Source: Nitratireductor sp. B36 (GTDB taxonomy: Bacteria; Pseudomonadota; Alphaproteobacteria; Rhizobiales; Rhizobiaceae). From it: a DNA stretch of 64,000 nt. The translations under genes were made by a program, and so were the position numbers. Below, piece by piece: positions 19,541 through 32,295 of this stretch. Below the pieces are notes generated by a model. That model saw only the letters and a list, made by a program, of their open reading frames with translations. It did not search any database and was not told the origin of the DNA. Position 1 is the stretch's first letter; each line of letters starts with the position of its first letter. The DNA is taken from the NCBI RefSeq assembly GCF_020833685.1, contig NZ_JACKZY010000003.1:634997-698996 (forward strand), given 5' to 3'.

Positions 19541-20260
19541 ATGAAGACGGGACTTGTTACCGGTGGAACTCGTGGCATTGGCGCGGCAATAGCAACAGCC
19601 CTCAGGGATGCTGGCTATCGGGTCGCGGTGAATTACGCGGGCAATGACGAGGCGGCGGCGCGGTTTGCCGAGGAAACCGGCATTGCCGCCTACAAATGGT
19701 CGATCGCCGATTATGATGCCTGTGCCGAAGGTGTTGCGAAGATCGAAGCCGATCTCGGGCCGGTGGACGTTCTGGTCAACAATGCCGGAATCACGCGGGA
19801 TGTGATGTTCCACAAGATGACGGTGGAAGACTGGCGCGCGGTTGTCGATGTCAATCTCAACGGCGTCTTCAACATGACGCATCAGGTTTTTGCCGGTATG
19901 CGGTCACGCAGGTTCGGTCGCATCGTCAATATATCTTCCATCAACGGTCAGAAGGGCCAGATGGGGCAGGCCAACTACTCGGCGGCCAAGGCCGGCGAGA
20001 TCGGTTTCACCAAGGCATTGGCCCAGGAGGGGGCGCGCTTCAACGTGACAGTGAACGCGATCTGCCCGGGCTATATCGCCACAGACATGGTGATGGCTGT
20101 GCCGGAAGCCGTGCGCGAGAAAATCATCGCCCAGATCCCGGTGGGGCGGTTGGGCGAGGCCTCGGAGATTGCAAGATCCGTGCTTTTTCTGGTTTCGGAC
20201 GAGGCCGGGTTCATGACCGGGTCGACATTGACGGTCAATGGCGGACAGTACTTCGTCTGA
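19541..20260 (+). CDS. phaB: Acetoacetyl-CoA reductase
   Basis: NADPH-dependent reduction of acetoacetyl-CoA to (R)-3-hydroxybutyryl-CoA. A 239-residue SDR with cofactor motif GGTRGIG near the N-terminus, NNAGITRDVMFHKM, catalytic Ser in NISSINGQKGQMGQ and YSAAK, all diagnostic of PhaB. ATG 19541 is preceded by AGGGAGG. It follows phaA on the same strand. Confidence 0.95.
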   Translation: MKTGLVTGGTRGIGAAIATALRDAGYRVAVNYAGNDEAAARFAEETGIAAYKWSIADYDACAEGVAKIEADLGPVDVLVNNAGITRDVMFHKMTVEDWRAVVDVNLNGVFNMTHQVFAGMRSRRFGRIVNISSINGQKGQMGQANYSAAKAGEIGFTKALAQEGARFNVTVNAICPGYIATDMVMAVPEAVREKIIAQIPVGRLGEASEIARSVLFLVSDEAGFMTGSTLTVNGGQYFV

Positions 20261-20478
20261 AGGAAAAACTGCTGCATTGCGCGGCTGAGTGACCCGGTGC
20301 TGTGGAGAAAAGCGAGCGTCGTGCTTTGCGTATCTCTGTATCAAATTGAAGCAATTTGGTTAACGCGGCATTCATCCTGACACTCCGGCCCTGTGGATAA
20401 GCTGTTCCTTATCTGTCGACAGCTGGTGGAAAACACCAGATGTAGTGGCGAACGTATCAGGAACATTTCGGCATCACT

Positions 20479-20520
20479 GATTCGTCGCCGATTCGTTCCG
20501 GGTTTGGTCGAAGTGTTAAC
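20479..20520 (+). repeat. Repeat block copy 1 (GATTC pair plus GTTAAC)
   Basis: GATTCGTCGC, C, GATTCGTTCC (20479-20499), a 15-nt spacer, then GTTAAC (20515-20520). It is matched by copy 2 at 20753-20794. Confidence 0.7.
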
Positions 20521-20752
20521 GCGTGGGTCTTCGAAGCGTCGAAAACCCGTTAACCGCTCAGCAAATTTTCCTAACGAAATCTTATGCTTGTTCGGGAAGA
20601 AGAGACGCGGTCCTCTGCCTTTCGCTCAAAAGTTAACGCTCATCCCCGGTTTCATACCATTTGGGCAAGGTGCCGATTCAGCATGTAGGCCCACGTGCTG
20701 AGCGATGCACAGCATATTGGGGTGAACAAAACGGGAAACACTCGAAGTGAGT

Positions 20753-20794
20753 GATTCGTCGCTGATTCGTTCCAGACTCGTTCCAAACCTTAAC
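20753..20794 (+). repeat. Repeat block copy 2 (GATTC pair plus CTTAAC)
   Basis: GATTCGTCGC, T, GATTCGTTCC (20753-20773), a 15-nt spacer carrying GACTC, then CTTAAC (20789-20794). Only one of 21 bases differs from copy 1, and the spacing to the TTAAC element is identical. Confidence 0.7.
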
Positions 20795-20928
20795 AAGCGA
20801 ATTTTTCTCCTCCCCGTTTGGGCAGGCTTTGTCGGCGGAGTGTCAGTCTTGCCTTGGAATGCGAAGGCAAAGCGTGCTAACCCGTGTGCTCGCCTTTTTT
20901 CGCTGAGGTAGACGGCTTTCCGGGCCCT

Positions 20929-23900
20929 ATGAATTTCCAGAATCAGAATGCCAGTCCCCGGACACTTTCGGGGCGCAACGTCACAGCCATCCTCGGCCCT
21001 ACCAACACGGGCAAGACGCATCTCGCCATTGAGCGTATGGTGGCGCATTCGAGCGGGATAATAGGCCTGCCACTGCGCCTGTTGGCTCGCGAGGTTTACA
21101 CGCGTGTTGTCGCCAAAGTGGGTGAGCAGCATGTGGCGTTGATCACCGGCGAGGAAAAGATATCGCCGCCGGGCGCGCGCTTCTCGGTGTGTACTGTGGA
21201 GGCAATGCCGCGTGAGGCGGATGTGGCCTTTGTCGCCATCGACGAAGTGCAGCTTGCCGCTGATCTCGAGCGCGGGCATATCTTCACCGACCGCATCCTG
21301 CACCTGCGGGGCCGCGAGGAAACGCTGCTGCTGGGTGCCGGCACGATGCGCGGCATCCTGGAAAAGCTGCTACCGGGCCTTTCGGTCATAACCCGGCCGC
21401 GCATGTCGGTGCTTACCTATTCCGGTTCGCGCAAGATCACGCGGCTGCCGCGTCGCTCGGCCATCGTGGCCTTTTCCTCCGATGAGGTTTATGCGATCGG
21501 CGAACTGATCCGCCGCCAGCGCGGCGGTGTCGCCGTGGTGCTTGGCGCGTTGAGCCCGCGCACCCGAAATGCGCAGGTGGCGCTCTATCAATCCGGCGAT
21601 GTTGACTATCTGGTGGCGACGGATGCCATCGGCATGGGGCTCAACCTCGATGTGGACCACGTTGCCTTTGCGCAAAACCGCAAGTTCGACGGTTTCCAGT
21701 ATCGCGACCTCAATCCGTCGGAACTCGGCCAGATCGCCGGACGTGCAGGCCGACATTTGAGGGACGGAACCTTTGGTGTGACGGGCCAGGTGGACCCATT
21801 CGCCGATGAGCTGGTCCATCGTATCGAGGCGCATGAGTTTGATCCGGTCAAGGTGCTGCAATGGCGCACGGCCGCGTTCGACTTTTCAAGCGTTGATGCT
21901 CTCAAGGCATCTCTCGATATGCCGCCTCCGGTTGAGGGGCTCACTCGCGCACTGCCTGCTGCGGATGCCAAAGTGCTCGAATTTCTGTCGCGGGATGAGG
22001 ACATACGCAAGCTGGCGGAAGGGCGCGAACGCGTCGGGCTTCTGTGGGAAGCCTGTGTGCTGCCCGATTACCGGCGTATAGCACCGGCCCAGCACGCGGA
22101 AATTGTTGGTGCAGTCTTTTCTGATCTGGCGCGAATGGGCCATGTCGATGAAGACTATATGGCTGAACAGGTCAAACGTGCCTCGTCTACCGAGGGGGAC
22201 ATCGACACTTTATCGCAGCGGATCGCGCAGATCCGCACATGGACATTTGTCTCGCATCGGCCCGGTTGGTTGGCCGATGCGACACACTGGCAAGAAAAAA
22301 CACGAGAGATTGAGGACAGTTTGTCCGATGCGCTGCATGAGCGATTGACGAAACGCTTTGTGGACCGCAGGACTTCCGTGCTCATGAAGCGCCTGAGAGA
22401 GAATGCAATGCCGGAAGCAGAAATCAGCCCCGTTGGCGAAGTCCTTGTCGAGGGGCACCATGTTGGTGAGATGCTAGGGTTCCGCTTTACTGCCGACCGT
22501 TCGGCGGAGGGCGAGGATGCGCGCGCCGTCAAGGCAGCCGCGCAAAAAGCGCTCGCGGCCGAGTATGAAGCTCGTGCGGAGCGTTTTGCCTCATCGGGCA
22601 ATGGAGATCTGGCGCTCGATTCTGATGGTCTGCTGCGTTGGCTCGGACAGCCTATCGCAACCCTGGTGGCTGGCGAGGATGCATTAAAGCCGCGTGTGGT
22701 GCTCCTGGCAGATGAGCAGCTTACCGGGCCGGCACGCGACAAGGTGGCTGCCCGTGCCGAACGCTTTGTGACATATCAGATCGAGTCGCTACTGAAGCCC
22801 TTGGTGGACCTTCGCAACACTGAAAGTCTTTCGGGAATGGCGCGCGGGATCGCCTTCCAGCTTGCCGAGAATTTCGGCGTGCTCAATCGCCGCAATGTGG
22901 CCGAAGACGTTCGCGCTCTCGATCAGGACGCGCGCGCCTCGTTGCGCCGCCTTGGCGTGCGCTTTGGCGCTTATCACATCTTTGTTCCTGCGCTGATCAA
23001 ACCCGCTCCTGCAGGGCTTCTGACACTTCTGTGGGCGCTGAAAAACGACGCTAAAGACAAGTCGGGCTATGGGGATGTCGTGAACGCGCTTGCCGCGGGG
23101 CGCACGTCTATCGTCACCGATCCGACCTTTGAAAAGGCGTTTTACGGGCTCGCGGGCTATCGCAATCTCGGTCGCCGTGCGGTGCGTGTCGATATTCTTG
23201 AGCGCCTTGCAGATCTTATTCGACCTGCGCTGTCGTGGAAGCCGGGAGCGGGCGCGCGGCCTGAAGGCGGTTATGACGGTGCTGCCTTTGTGGTCACGCC
23301 GGCAATGATGTCCATTCTTGGTGCGACCGCTGACGATATGGAAGCGATCCTCAAGGGGCTGGGCTATCGTGGAGAGCCGAAATCAGCTGAAGAGGTGGCC
23401 GCGCATCTGAAGGCGCTCGACGAGGCGGCTGCGGAAAAGGAAGCGACACAAAAGGCCGAGGAACTCAAATCAGCCGCGCCCGTGGCTGAGGGGACGGAAA
23501 CGGCCGCGGCGACCGAGGAGGCCACTGCCCAGCCAAATGAGGGAGCAGAGGCAGAGACCGTTGTGGCGGAGACACCCGCCGAGACCGCAACGCCTGCGGC
23601 TGCTGAGACCACCGCGGATGCAGCAGCTGAGGCTGTGGCTGAAGCGCCTGCTTCCGAGGCTTCGGCCGAAAATGCATCCGTCGAGGAAGAAGAACCGAAG
23701 CCGGTTCTCATCTGGCGGCAGGCTCGTTTCGATGGGCGAAAGCGCCATGGTGCGGGCAAGGGAAGTCCGCGCCAGCAGGGGCGCGGGCGTCAGGAACGCG
23801 AGGGGGCCCAAAAGCGAGGCAAACCTCCACGCAAGGACGGTGACAAGCAGAGCTTTAAACGCAAAGGAGCTGCGCATCGTCCGCGCGAGGAGCGGCCGGC

Positions 23901-23964
23901 TCGGATCGATCCGGATTCACCCTTTGCCAAGCTCGCTGCACTGAAGGACCAGTTGAAGAAGTAG
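20929..23964 (+). CDS. Suv3-like RNA helicase with extended C-terminal tail
   Basis: A 1011-residue superfamily 2 helicase of the mitochondrial-degradasome (SUV3) type, expected to unwind RNA with ATP. Visible motifs: Walker A GPTNTGKTH (Lys29), DEVQ as the DEXH motif, SGSRKIT, ATDAIGMGLNLD, and QIAGRAGRH. After about residue 820 comes a long Ala/Glu-rich, coiled or disordered segment, ending in a strongly basic Arg/Lys/Gly tail that probably binds RNA. ATG 20929 is used because the conserved region follows within 17 residues; no good ribosome binding site is visible, and GTG 20884 is an alternative. An S4 RNA-binding gene follows by 9 bp. Confidence 0.9.
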   Translation: MNFQNQNASPRTLSGRNVTAILGPTNTGKTHLAIERMVAHSSGIIGLPLRLLAREVYTRVVAKVGEQHVALITGEEKISPPGARFSVCTVEAMPREADVAFVAIDEVQLAADLERGHIFTDRILHLRGREETLLLGAGTMRGILEKLLPGLSVITRPRMSVLTYSGSRKITRLPRRSAIVAFSSDEVYAIGELIRRQRGGVAVVLGALSPRTRNAQVALYQSGDVDYLVATDAIGMGLNLDVDHVAFAQNRKFDGFQYRDLNPSELGQIAGRAGRHLRDGTFGVTGQVDPFADELVHRIEAHEFDPVKVLQWRTAAFDFSSVDALKASLDMPPPVEGLTRALPAADAKVLEFLSRDEDIRKLAEGRERVGLLWEACVLPDYRRIAPAQHAEIVGAVFSDLARMGHVDEDYMAEQVKRASSTEGDIDTLSQRIAQIRTWTFVSHRPGWLADATHWQEKTREIEDSLSDALHERLTKRFVDRRTSVLMKRLRENAMPEAEISPVGEVLVEGHHVGEMLGFRFTADRSAEGEDARAVKAAAQKALAAEYEARAERFASSGNGDLALDSDGLLRWLGQPIATLVAGEDALKPRVVLLADEQLTGPARDKVAARAERFVTYQIESLLKPLVDLRNTESLSGMARGIAFQLAENFGVLNRRNVAEDVRALDQDARASLRRLGVRFGAYHIFVPALIKPAPAGLLTLLWALKNDAKDKSGYGDVVNALAAGRTSIVTDPTFEKAFYGLAGYRNLGRRAVRVDILERLADLIRPALSWKPGAGARPEGGYDGAAFVVTPAMMSILGATADDMEAILKGLGYRGEPKSAEEVAAHLKALDEAAAEKEATQKAEELKSAAPVAEGTETAAATEEATAQPNEGAEAETVVAETPAETATPAAAETTADAAAEAVAEAPASEASAENASVEEEEPKPVLIWRQARFDGRKRHGAGKGSPRQQGRGRQEREGAQKRGKPPRKDGDKQSFKRKGAAHRPREERPARIDPDSPFAKLAALKDQLKK

Positions 23965-23973
23965 CGCCATGCA

Positions 23974-24363
23974 ATGAGCGGGACAGCTTTAGAACGGCAG
24001 CGCATCGATAAGTGGCTGTTCTTTGCACGGGTGGTGAAATCACGCTCACTCGCTGCCAAGCTCGCACAGGCGGGACGAGTTCGGGTCAATCGCAACAAGA
24101 TCGAGCAGGCCGCCTACCAGATCAAGGTGGGCGACGTGCTCACCATCTCTCTTGACCGGCGTATCCTTGTATACCGTGTTCTGGCGCCTGGGGCGCGGCG
24201 TGGCCCCGCGGAAGAGGCACGTCTGCTCTATGAAGACATGACTCCGCCTGCCCCGCCGAAAGAGATCCTGGTAGCGTCACAGCCGCCAAAGCGTGATCTG
24301 GGGACCGGACGCCCGACCAAGAAGGAGCGTCGCGCGCTCGATCGGTGGCGCGACGACGGCTGA
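23974..24363 (+). CDS. S4-domain RNA-binding protein (Hsp15-like)
   Basis: A 129-residue protein with an N-terminal S4 domain (QRIDKWLFFARVVKSRSLAAKLAQAGRVRVN), the fold shared by Hsp15 and ribosomal S4. Hsp15 rescues nascent-chain-blocked 50S subunits; the same role here is inferred only from similarity. The basic C-terminal tail (TKKERRALDRWR) is typical. It starts 9 bp after the helicase stop, so the two are co-transcribed, suggesting an RNA or ribosome quality theme. Confidence 0.88.
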   Translation: MSGTALERQRIDKWLFFARVVKSRSLAAKLAQAGRVRVNRNKIEQAAYQIKVGDVLTISLDRRILVYRVLAPGARRGPAEEARLLYEDMTPPAPPKEILVASQPPKRDLGTGRPTKKERRALDRWRDDG

Positions 24364-24501
24364 ATCCGAAAACAGGTCTCCAAAGGTAGGAATGGGATTT
24401 CGCCTGCGACGATTGCGGCGCAATAACGGGCCTTGCAACCGCCCTTCAAAGGCGATACCTCACCTCTCGACATTCCAAGAAGCTGTCAGCCGAGAGCACC
24501 A

Positions 24502-24840
24502 ATGACCTATATCGTCACCGACAATTGCATCAAGTGCAAGTACATGGACTGTATAGAAGTTTGTCCGGTGGACTGTTTCTATGAGGGTGAAAACATGCTC
24601 GTCATCCATCCGGATGAGTGCATCGACTGCGGTGTCTGTGAACCGGAATGCCCGGCAGAGGCGATCAAGCCCGATACTGAGCCAGGTCTGGATAGCTGGC
24701 TTCAGCTGAATTCCGAATATGCCGAAAAATGGCCCAACATCACCGCTAAGAAAGAGCCTCCGGCAGACGCCAAGGAATTTGATGGCGTCGAAAACAAGCT
24801 GGAGCAGTACTTTTCGCCGGAGCCCGGCGAAGGAGATTGA
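24502..24840 (+). CDS. fdxA: Seven-iron ferredoxin (3Fe-4S/4Fe-4S)
   Basis: A 112-residue electron carrier starting [26 protein letters not shown]. Cysteines of the N-terminal 3Fe-4S/4Fe-4S pair (9, 17, 21, 25 and others) and the second motif [12 protein letters not shown] are present, matching the Azotobacter FdI / FdxA family by length and by its C-terminal extension ([13 protein letters not shown]). FdxA is an essential gene in several alphaproteobacteria; the partner redox enzyme is not indicated by context. It lies downstream of the S4 gene with a 138-bp gap. Confidence 0.96.
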
Positions 24841-25219: not shown

Positions 25220-25792
25220 ATGACCACCCAGCAGAAGAAATCGGCGCAGCGTCAGGGATTCAAGACTGGCGAATATATCGTGTATCCGGCGCACGGCGTC
25301 GGGCAGATCGTTACGATCGAAGAGCAGGAAGTCGCCGGTCACAAGCTGGAATTGTTCGTCATCGATTTTCAGAAGGACAAGATGCGCCTCAAGGTTCCGG
25401 TCGCCAAGGCGACGTCCATTGGCATGCGCAAGCTTTCCGAAACTGATTATGTCGATCGTGCGCTCAAGGTCGTCCAGGGCCGTGCCCGCGTGAAGCGCAC
25501 CATGTGGTCGCGCCGCGCCCAGGAGTATGATGCAAAGATCAATTCGGGTGACCTGATCTCCATTTCGGAAGTCGTGCGCGATCTTTATCGTGCCGACAAT
25601 CAGCCGGAGCAGTCCTATTCGGAGCGTCAGCTCTATGAAGCCGCACTCGACCGCATGGCGCGCGAGATCGCGGCCGTCAATCGCATGTCGGAAACCGAAG
25701 CTGTGCGCCTGATCGAGACGAACCTGAACAAGGGTCCGCGCCGTGGTGCGAAAGCCGACAATGAGGAAGCCGAGAAGGACGAGGCGGCGTAA
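25220..25792 (+). CDS. carD: CarD-family transcription factor
   Basis: A 190-residue protein that binds RNA polymerase beta and stabilises open promoter complexes. The N-terminal RNAP-interaction domain is clear: FKTGEYIVYPAHGVGQIVTIEEQEVAG, then KLELFVIDFQKDKMRLKVPV; the helical C-terminal DNA-binding part follows (YSERQLYEAALDRMAREIAAV). The C-terminus is lysine- and glutamate-rich. It is monocistronic, with a strong terminator just behind. In Rhizobiales carD commonly neighbours fdxA and rpoH2, as here. Confidence 0.94.
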   Translation: MTTQQKKSAQRQGFKTGEYIVYPAHGVGQIVTIEEQEVAGHKLELFVIDFQKDKMRLKVPVAKATSIGMRKLSETDYVDRALKVVQGRARVKRTMWSRRAQEYDAKINSGDLISISEVVRDLYRADNQPEQSYSERQLYEAALDRMAREIAAVNRMSETEAVRLIETNLNKGPRRGAKADNEEAEKDEAA

Positions 25793-32086: not shown

Positions 32087-32098
32087 TGAGTGAAAAGC

Positions 32099-32198
32099 GT
32101 CTAATCCCTCCGCCGGTATCAGCCGGATCAGGTTCCGCGGGTTGGTTGGGTTCTTCCCAAGCCTCTCAGCCGACAATGCGCCGGCACCCCGTTAGAGC
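32099..32198 (-). promoter_or_regulatory. TPP riboswitch (THI element)
   Basis: On the minus strand the conserved blocks occur in order: ACGGGGTGCC (32183-32192), GGCTGAGA (32164-32171), GAACCTGATC (32126-32135), and the TACCGGCG-type block ending in GGAGGGA (32105-32118). The P1 stem pairs TCTAA (32192-32196) with TTAGA (32100-32104). It binds thiamine pyrophosphate and controls thiBPQ. A TATTTT -10-like box lies just upstream near 32205. Confidence 0.96.
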
Positions 32199-32295
32199 GA
32201 CCGGGAAAATAGGGCGCGGTGCGCAGCTCCGCAAGGGGGGTGAATGGTGCAAACGCCGTTGGCGCTGGCCCGCCGGCATGATATGGGCCTCGCCC

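Follow-up and report, generated by a model that had tools for sequence, protein, structure and literature searches.

What is the function of the non-coding DNA that separates phaB from a helicase gene in this genome (4.19 Mb, 9 contigs), which a first-pass annotation had described as origin-like and as a possible secondary or regulatory element? The stretch analysed here, hereafter the window, is 64 kb long (C3:634997-698996), and the segment of interest occupies its positions 20261-20928, between the stop codon of phaB (acetoacetyl-CoA reductase) and the ATG of the helicase gene, the boundaries that had been proposed for it. Similarity to this whole region at the DNA level was found in 9/9 other genomes of the same genus. 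The genes that follow on the same strand encode, in that order, a SUV3-type RNA helicase (20929..23964, plus strand; Pfam DEXQc_Suv3, 1.1e-26; PDB Suv3, 4.4e-37), an S4-domain protein (23974..24363, plus strand; weakly Hsp15-like, under the cut-off of that family), the ferredoxin FdxA (fdxA, 24499..24840, plus strand; NCBIfam NF045490, cut-off exceeded), a CarD-family protein (25220..25792, plus strand; Pfam CarD_C, 2.4e-24) and sigma-32. The nearest named relatives of the helicase protein are those of Nitratireductor (best-segment identity, 92-93%). We take the helicase gene to be presumably the same as SMc03877 (mgpS) of S. meliloti, which PMC4941405 lists among the RNA helicases whose transcription rises under acid stress. 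No sigma-70-type promoter was found between positions 20200 and 21000, a point against a control region of these genes.

On balance, and without strong conviction, we favour the proposal that the segment is a control region, built of phased DNA-protein contacts, for the helicase gene, and probably also for the S4, fdxA and carD genes behind it, and that DnaA joins in this clade (functional steps that we infer, the sign of the regulation included). The old core of this region would be a module of ~90 bp with contacts every ~11 bp, present here twice, 274 bp (26 helical turns) apart; since the module contacts recur about every 11 bp, the bound proteins would all lie on the same side of the helix. 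Our prediction for the Nitratireductor-Mesorhizobium group is that DnaA polymerises on a row of weak boxes spaced by 11 bp and joins the distal module. This would couple the presumed operon to the activity of DnaA and perhaps also to GANTC methylation, whose state changes on fork passage.

The motifs that had first drawn attention to the segment are indeed present. The perfect DnaA box TGTGGATAA (20392-20400) is the sole one in the 64-kb window and was equalled in 2/2000 dinucleotide shuffles of the segment, from which all motif expectations for the segment were derived (1 box versus 0.00 expected), and the near match reported along with it is the one-mismatch box TGTGGAGAA on the minus strand (20301..20309). 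The four GTTAAC palindromes, at 20359, 20515, 20549 and 20632, are every GTTAAC of the window, and the claim that they exceed chance is borne out (0.11 expected; 0/2000 shuffles with as many). At the first of them (20359..20364) TTAAC are the most frequent letters among relatives, the one at 20549..20554 comes from the motif scan, and the one at 20632..20637, between the modules, was found by the motif scan and is conserved in relatives. All four GATTCGT copies of the window also lie inside the segment (0.10 expected from dinucleotide shuffles). The six GANTC sites (20479, 20490, 20675, 20753, 20764 and 20775, in about 300 bp) had been counted correctly; 2.82 are expected in the segment and 106/2000 shuffles reach six, a marginal excess that is modest once the lower GC content of the segment (0.52 versus 0.61) is allowed for. 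Moreover, the six sites are not independent, because five of them sit in two copies of one repeat.

The enrichment is clearer across relatives. From 80 helicase loci of relatives, three (L034, L069 and L073) were left out as their upstream DNA was too short, and the other 77 together with the window gave 78 homologous upstream regions of 620 bp. They hold 691 GANTC (221 expected), a conservation of the kind looked for in GcrA/CcrM promoters, 184 GTTAAC (7.5 expected) and 15 TTATCCACA (0.1 expected).

The repeat just mentioned, which the first-pass annotation, right as to the motifs, had missed together with an 11-bp array of DnaA boxes, was found by a repeat search as one unit in two copies, at 20479 and 20753. 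It belongs to the ~90-bp module, whose distal copy (20433..20521, plus strand, 76.3 bits) holds CAC.A.AT.T.G, GAAC-N7-GAAC, GATTCGTCGCCGATTCGTTCC and GTTAACG, and whose proximal copy (20707..20794, plus strand, 75.7 bits) holds the three 11-bp units GATTCGTCGCT, GATTCGTTCCA and GACTCGTTCCA. In the aligned relatives, the module reads CAC.A.AT.T.G, GTGAACAAA, GAA, AGTCAG and GATTCGTCGC.GATTCGTTCC, then AGACTCGTTCC in the proximal copy or a variable stretch in the distal one, and finally GTTAA, with conserved positions that recur, as judged by eye, at about 11 bp. The distance between the two modules in 70 two-module loci is 271-274 bp in 42 and 281-285 bp in 25, two main classes that lie one helical turn apart; it is 247, 259 and 263 bp in one locus each, and never 275-280 bp. 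Outside the clade the spacing is not phased (about 279 bp in S. meliloti; about 196 and 201 bp in Rhizobium). The GATTC of the core is conserved in 76/77 proximal and 65/70 distal modules and retained in most class-wide matches, in which the second GATTC and the other GANTC vary, so that most GANTC sites are a rhizobial-side feature. Between the modules, a third conserved piece of the aligned relatives, GATTCAGCATGTAGG (20675..20689, plus strand), holds one of the six GANTC sites; its GATTCAGCAT also occurs in the upstream regions of S. meliloti/Sinorhizobium and Rhizobium, and is possibly the remnant of a third module.

Compact conserved non-coding blocks in two tandem copies would also suit a small RNA or a leader RNA acting as such, a reading that we hold to be highly improbable, in that the consensus fold is weak, with 6 predicted pairs and no covariation, and conserved bases at 11-bp steps suit the DNA helix better. 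A structured RNA was rejected on the lack of covarying pairs and of any Rfam match up to E 5. Elsewhere, a TPP riboswitch (32088-32201, minus strand, 65.3 bits) is the one Rfam hit of the window that passes the gathering threshold.

The DnaA part of our proposal concerns the DNA just before the distal module, where four DnaA-box-like 9-mers, all pointing the same way, follow one another every 11 bp (20392..20433, minus strand; 9, 5, 6 and 7 matches out of 9, i.e. 27/36). Most of the 70 two-module relatives, which are related to one another and whose counts are thus not independent, carry four or five such same-orientation 9-mers, 11 bp apart, at this place. Averaged over the 70 regions, the match to TGTGGATAA has its maxima at -54, -65, -76 and -87 and a lesser one at -99. 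Between -100 and -45, 51/70 regions hold a box with no more than one mismatch, and none there has the opposite orientation; such boxes occur in 3 regions in the stretch just upstream and in none between the modules. Perfect DnaA boxes, found in 15/78 regions, have a single orientation throughout and positions that step by 11 bp. An 11-bp period gives an average array score of 22.7, versus 15.7-17.1 for other periods. Four-box 11-bp arrays score at least 23/36 in 53/70 regions (17/70 fall below 23), as compared with 2 of 2,075,736 background positions, the best of which reaches 24. In 420 kb of G171 and in the 484 kb sampled from the genome under study (window included), no other array of at least 23 was seen.

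When boxes lie 2 bp apart, DnaA-ATP binds them cooperatively; the DnaA oligomerisation arrays of oriC (low-affinity sites 2 bp apart) are likewise made of one-orientation 9-mers with an 11-bp period; unlike them, the segment lies off the skew origin and has no obvious unwinding region. In the 12 hemE regions no array of this kind was seen, and none of them has more than one perfect DnaA box; the array score thus misses the presumed origin, which makes it a weaker indicator of DnaA sites in this DNA. Taken together, the array makes DnaA a likely binder of the segment in this clade. Neither Sinorhizobium nor Rhizobium showed the array, which was therefore gained, or lost, within the family; class-wide, perfect boxes occur in 2/27 loci. 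In two loci of family f60 (L221 and L222), a perfect DnaA box of opposite orientation precedes the module core by 93 bp, possibly an independent gain of DnaA.

A DnaA-box array, as present in the segment, is one mark of oriC; two others, a skew minimum and parS sites, lie elsewhere. In the contig under study, hemE, the GC-skew switch and parS-like sites cluster ~439 kb from the segment, which agrees with the earlier remark that the usual rhizobial origin lies near hemE and not here. The skew switches at hemE (216 kb), within whose stretch the cumulative minimum falls, and the segment, at 655 kb, falls within a single replichore: skew is at most 0.0012 in each of the five stretches before hemE, and positive in 16/18 stretches after it, that of the segment included. 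The skew minimum that had been suggested as a check is thus not at the segment. In the single-contig congener G008, the skew minimum of 40 sampled stretches falls at 620-682 kb, a range that takes in hemE (645 kb) and not the element (206 kb); the sampled skew profile of G171 was too noisy to use. Sites resembling parS (at most 2 mismatches to the consensus) occur 6-9 kb beyond hemE in this contig and in 11/12 hemE regions, and none was found in the window or the other sampled stretches, save one overlapping a hemE region.

By its long-term position, the segment is not the chromosomal origin, a candidate rejected on skew switch, parS-like sites and distance to hemE alike; of the first reading as an origin-like, secondary or regulatory element, it is the regulatory part that is supported, by conservation of the sites far beyond the genus. 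A secondary or conditional replication origin would account for a DnaA array stronger than anything at hemE and for the cluster of GTTAAC and GANTC, and is slightly raised because the hemE regions have no comparable array; with no skew switch, no pronounced AT-rich stretch in the segment (60-bp windows of 0.42-0.60 GC) and no parS-like site in the window, we nevertheless consider it most improbable.

The same observations bear on another alternative, namely that the segment is a DnaA control site comparable to datA and DARS, i.e. a non-origin, non-coding array that titrates, inactivates or reactivates DnaA and times initiation, the adjacent genes being incidental. The datA, DARS1 and DARS2 sites of Escherichia coli are likewise non-coding DnaA-box clusters away from the origin; the segment is such a cluster as far as its sequence alone tells, and differs from them in that its 11-bp array is found in one clade, joined to a separate conserved module before an operon. 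Several features speak for this alternative: none of the background and own-genome stretches scanned holds a better array than this one-orientation row, the modules mark a single place in the genome, the 484 kb sampled contain just 2 perfect DnaA boxes, one in the segment and one near hemE, and the element lies 411-497 kb from hemE in seven genomes of the family that have both on one contig (G000, G001, G003, G008, G024, G171 and G332; in G104 the two are on separate contigs). A constant distance is, however, equally expected from conserved gene order, and the core module, which goes with the helicase operon, has a wider distribution than the array; we judge this alternative unlikely. Its fuller form, an alphaproteobacterial counterpart of datA/DARS in which each chromosome would have a single DnaA site outside the origin, at a set distance from oriC and with its array built on an ancient GANTC module, so that fork passage and CcrM methylation would reset DnaA once per cycle, seems to us slightly less likely still. 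In two f28 genomes the distance to hemE is 530-555 kb. The site of G270, 1.5 Mb from hemE, is a palindromic word of family f34, and that of G233 (f50), 12 kb from hemE, is an extra copy of the module.

Our preferred reading, a control region of the downstream genes, draws on the distribution of the module. In the genome under study, it has 2 matches at the thresholds used, both in the segment. When up to three mismatches to the double word are allowed, 76/77 near relatives with enough upstream DNA have it in the 620 bp before the helicase gene, mostly twice (L049 has none); it also lies upstream of the helicase gene in S. meliloti/Sinorhizobium and Rhizobium, so that the conservation proposed as a check was found. 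The exact double word occurs in 12/13 genomes of the family (own included) and in 28/297 genomes of an order-wide sample, and the sequence model R1 finds the module in 33/387 class-wide genomes. Among 28 class-wide loci found by the module alone (which exclude the genome under study and G060; G669, G476 and G532 are positive without a locus), 24 have the helicase gene within their 1.5-kb flank; the four exceptions are L227, with the module 4.7 kb away from the helicase gene, L225, whose genome has no helicase, and L253 and L254, described below. Conversely, 80 helicase upstream regions from 100 helicase genomes across the class (own included) have the module in 15, as many as R1 alone finds at E below 0.01, and the helicase therefore does not need the module. 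As 11 of these 15 had helped to build the matrix, the independent count is 4 positives among the other 69 regions. At the same threshold (1% of shuffles), the wrong strand passes in 4/80 regions, perhaps on account of the inverted repeats that the module contains; right-strand scores are at least 29 in 14/80 regions, the best wrong-strand score being -1.8. Of 11 loci scanned for degenerate modules, ten, from families f34, f44 and f50, have them before the helicase gene, and the eleventh, G500 of f127, has none. Judged from these matches, the module is of old age but has a patchy rather than a universal distribution. Its left half is matched from rhizobia to small AT-rich genomes of 1.4 Mb, a breadth that implies a conserved protein recognising the core.

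Regulation of the helicase alone was rejected, for the module is retained before the TerB, FdxA and CarD genes in two genomes without a helicase match (L253 and L254; in L254 the S4 gene comes first after the module, ahead of these three). Family f50 has an additional copy beside a DUF3108 gene that is related to the one found ahead of the module in f28, f29, f31, f35, f42 and f49 loci, which suggests a rearrangement that separated two modules. In L121 (f50), the extra module sits between two gene ends with no gene start downstream, and this persistence counts against a pure promoter reading.

Which other regulators might bind the module was considered from its words. GTTC-N7-GTTC (20769..20783, minus strand), present 96 times in the 78 upstream regions (2.3 expected), exactly matches the alphaproteobacterial LexA box, and occurs on the other strand, as GAAC-N7-GAAC, just upstream of the genome's own lexA-like gene; a GAAC-N7-GAAC direct repeat also lies in the distal module (20450..20464, plus strand), with both GAAC retained in 13/70 distal modules. 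If these were LexA boxes, the segment would be a LexA/SOS-controlled promoter and the operon induced by DNA damage. The repeat is found in 77/77 proximal modules, but in 1/70 distal ones, i.e. it is missing from 69; GAAC-N7-GAAC is common genome-wide (122 sites versus 88 for the reversed control), and the repeat is embedded in a much longer module whose conserved bases extend well past the LexA half-sites. We thus regard LexA, on motif grounds, as a fair candidate for one part of the region, and LexA control as the explanation of the segment as distinctly unlikely. As for CtrA, whose control of this DNA had been suggested, the full site TTAA-N7-TTAA is absent from the segment and from the 78 regions, and a CtrA-bound region was rejected; the half-site TTAACCAT is likewise absent from the segment, and occurs 10 times in the 78 regions (0.9 expected).

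Control by CcrM and GcrA is possible, the segment having GANTC enrichment in common with GcrA/CcrM-controlled promoters. CcrM methylation may matter in that the core holds a nearly invariant GATTC, though the bases around it are equally kept. In Brucella, GcrA ChIP peaks are reported to be enriched 4.4- and 4.7-fold in GANTC (PMC6813329, PMC3973325; further background on GANTC and GcrA in PMC5172544).

The word CAC.A.AT.T.G at the start of the module shares key positions with the consensus of the NrdR box. An NrdR-controlled promoter was rejected, as each module has one box-like word and not a pair ~30 bp apart, and the downstream gene encodes a helicase, not a ribonucleotide reductase; the word resembles the consensus and the upstream region of the genome's own class II ribonucleotide reductase gene, but one-mismatch matches in the genome (9 versus 27 for the control, per strand) do not exceed control counts. 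That upstream region (L261, 1471-1514) has a perfect NrdR-type palindrome, and visual inspection suggests another, less perfect one some 30 bp from it.

No paper on the element was among those listed in a literature search that was incomplete as to subscription papers and supplements, and is hence no proof of novelty, and a text search of papers for the exact module words gave unrelated matches only among the best 15 of 45. RhizoBindingSites (PMC7674921) reportedly offers per-gene footprint motifs for nine symbiotic species, which may include that of the module. To our knowledge, the action of DnaA outside the origin is poorly charted in alphaproteobacteria, and the segment provides one precisely located site at which DnaA, LexA, CcrM/GcrA and the putative core factor can be examined together.

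A plasmid-borne site was rejected: five records of a plasmid collection matched, four of them of 3.5-3.7 Mb. In two records with gene tables the module precedes the helicase gene, and one further record has no features there. One record bears the title plasmid pSymB, namely CP090106.1 (L206; S. meliloti Ak57), but with its 3.72 Mb and the rpmF-phaR-helicase region in it, it looks like the chromosome. NZ_CP072868.1 (L207; Rhizobium sp. NLR16a 'plasmid p3') is a 489-kb circular record with core-type chromosomal genes (clpB, prfA, secA, rpmF, phaR and the helicase gene, plus three modules, in about 60 of the 489 kb viewed), and is either an excised part of the chromosome or an assembly artefact.

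In family f34, the words GAACGAATC...GATTCGTTC occur at loci that differ from genome to genome (L125-L128, L255 and L257-L259); those of L125-L128 look like a palindromic relative at other loci, and f34 genomes also have a separate degenerate module before the helicase gene. Finally, the N-terminal part of the CarD protein of L253 (7638-8879) includes a long region resembling histone H1 (HC2; Pfam, 3.4e-16).
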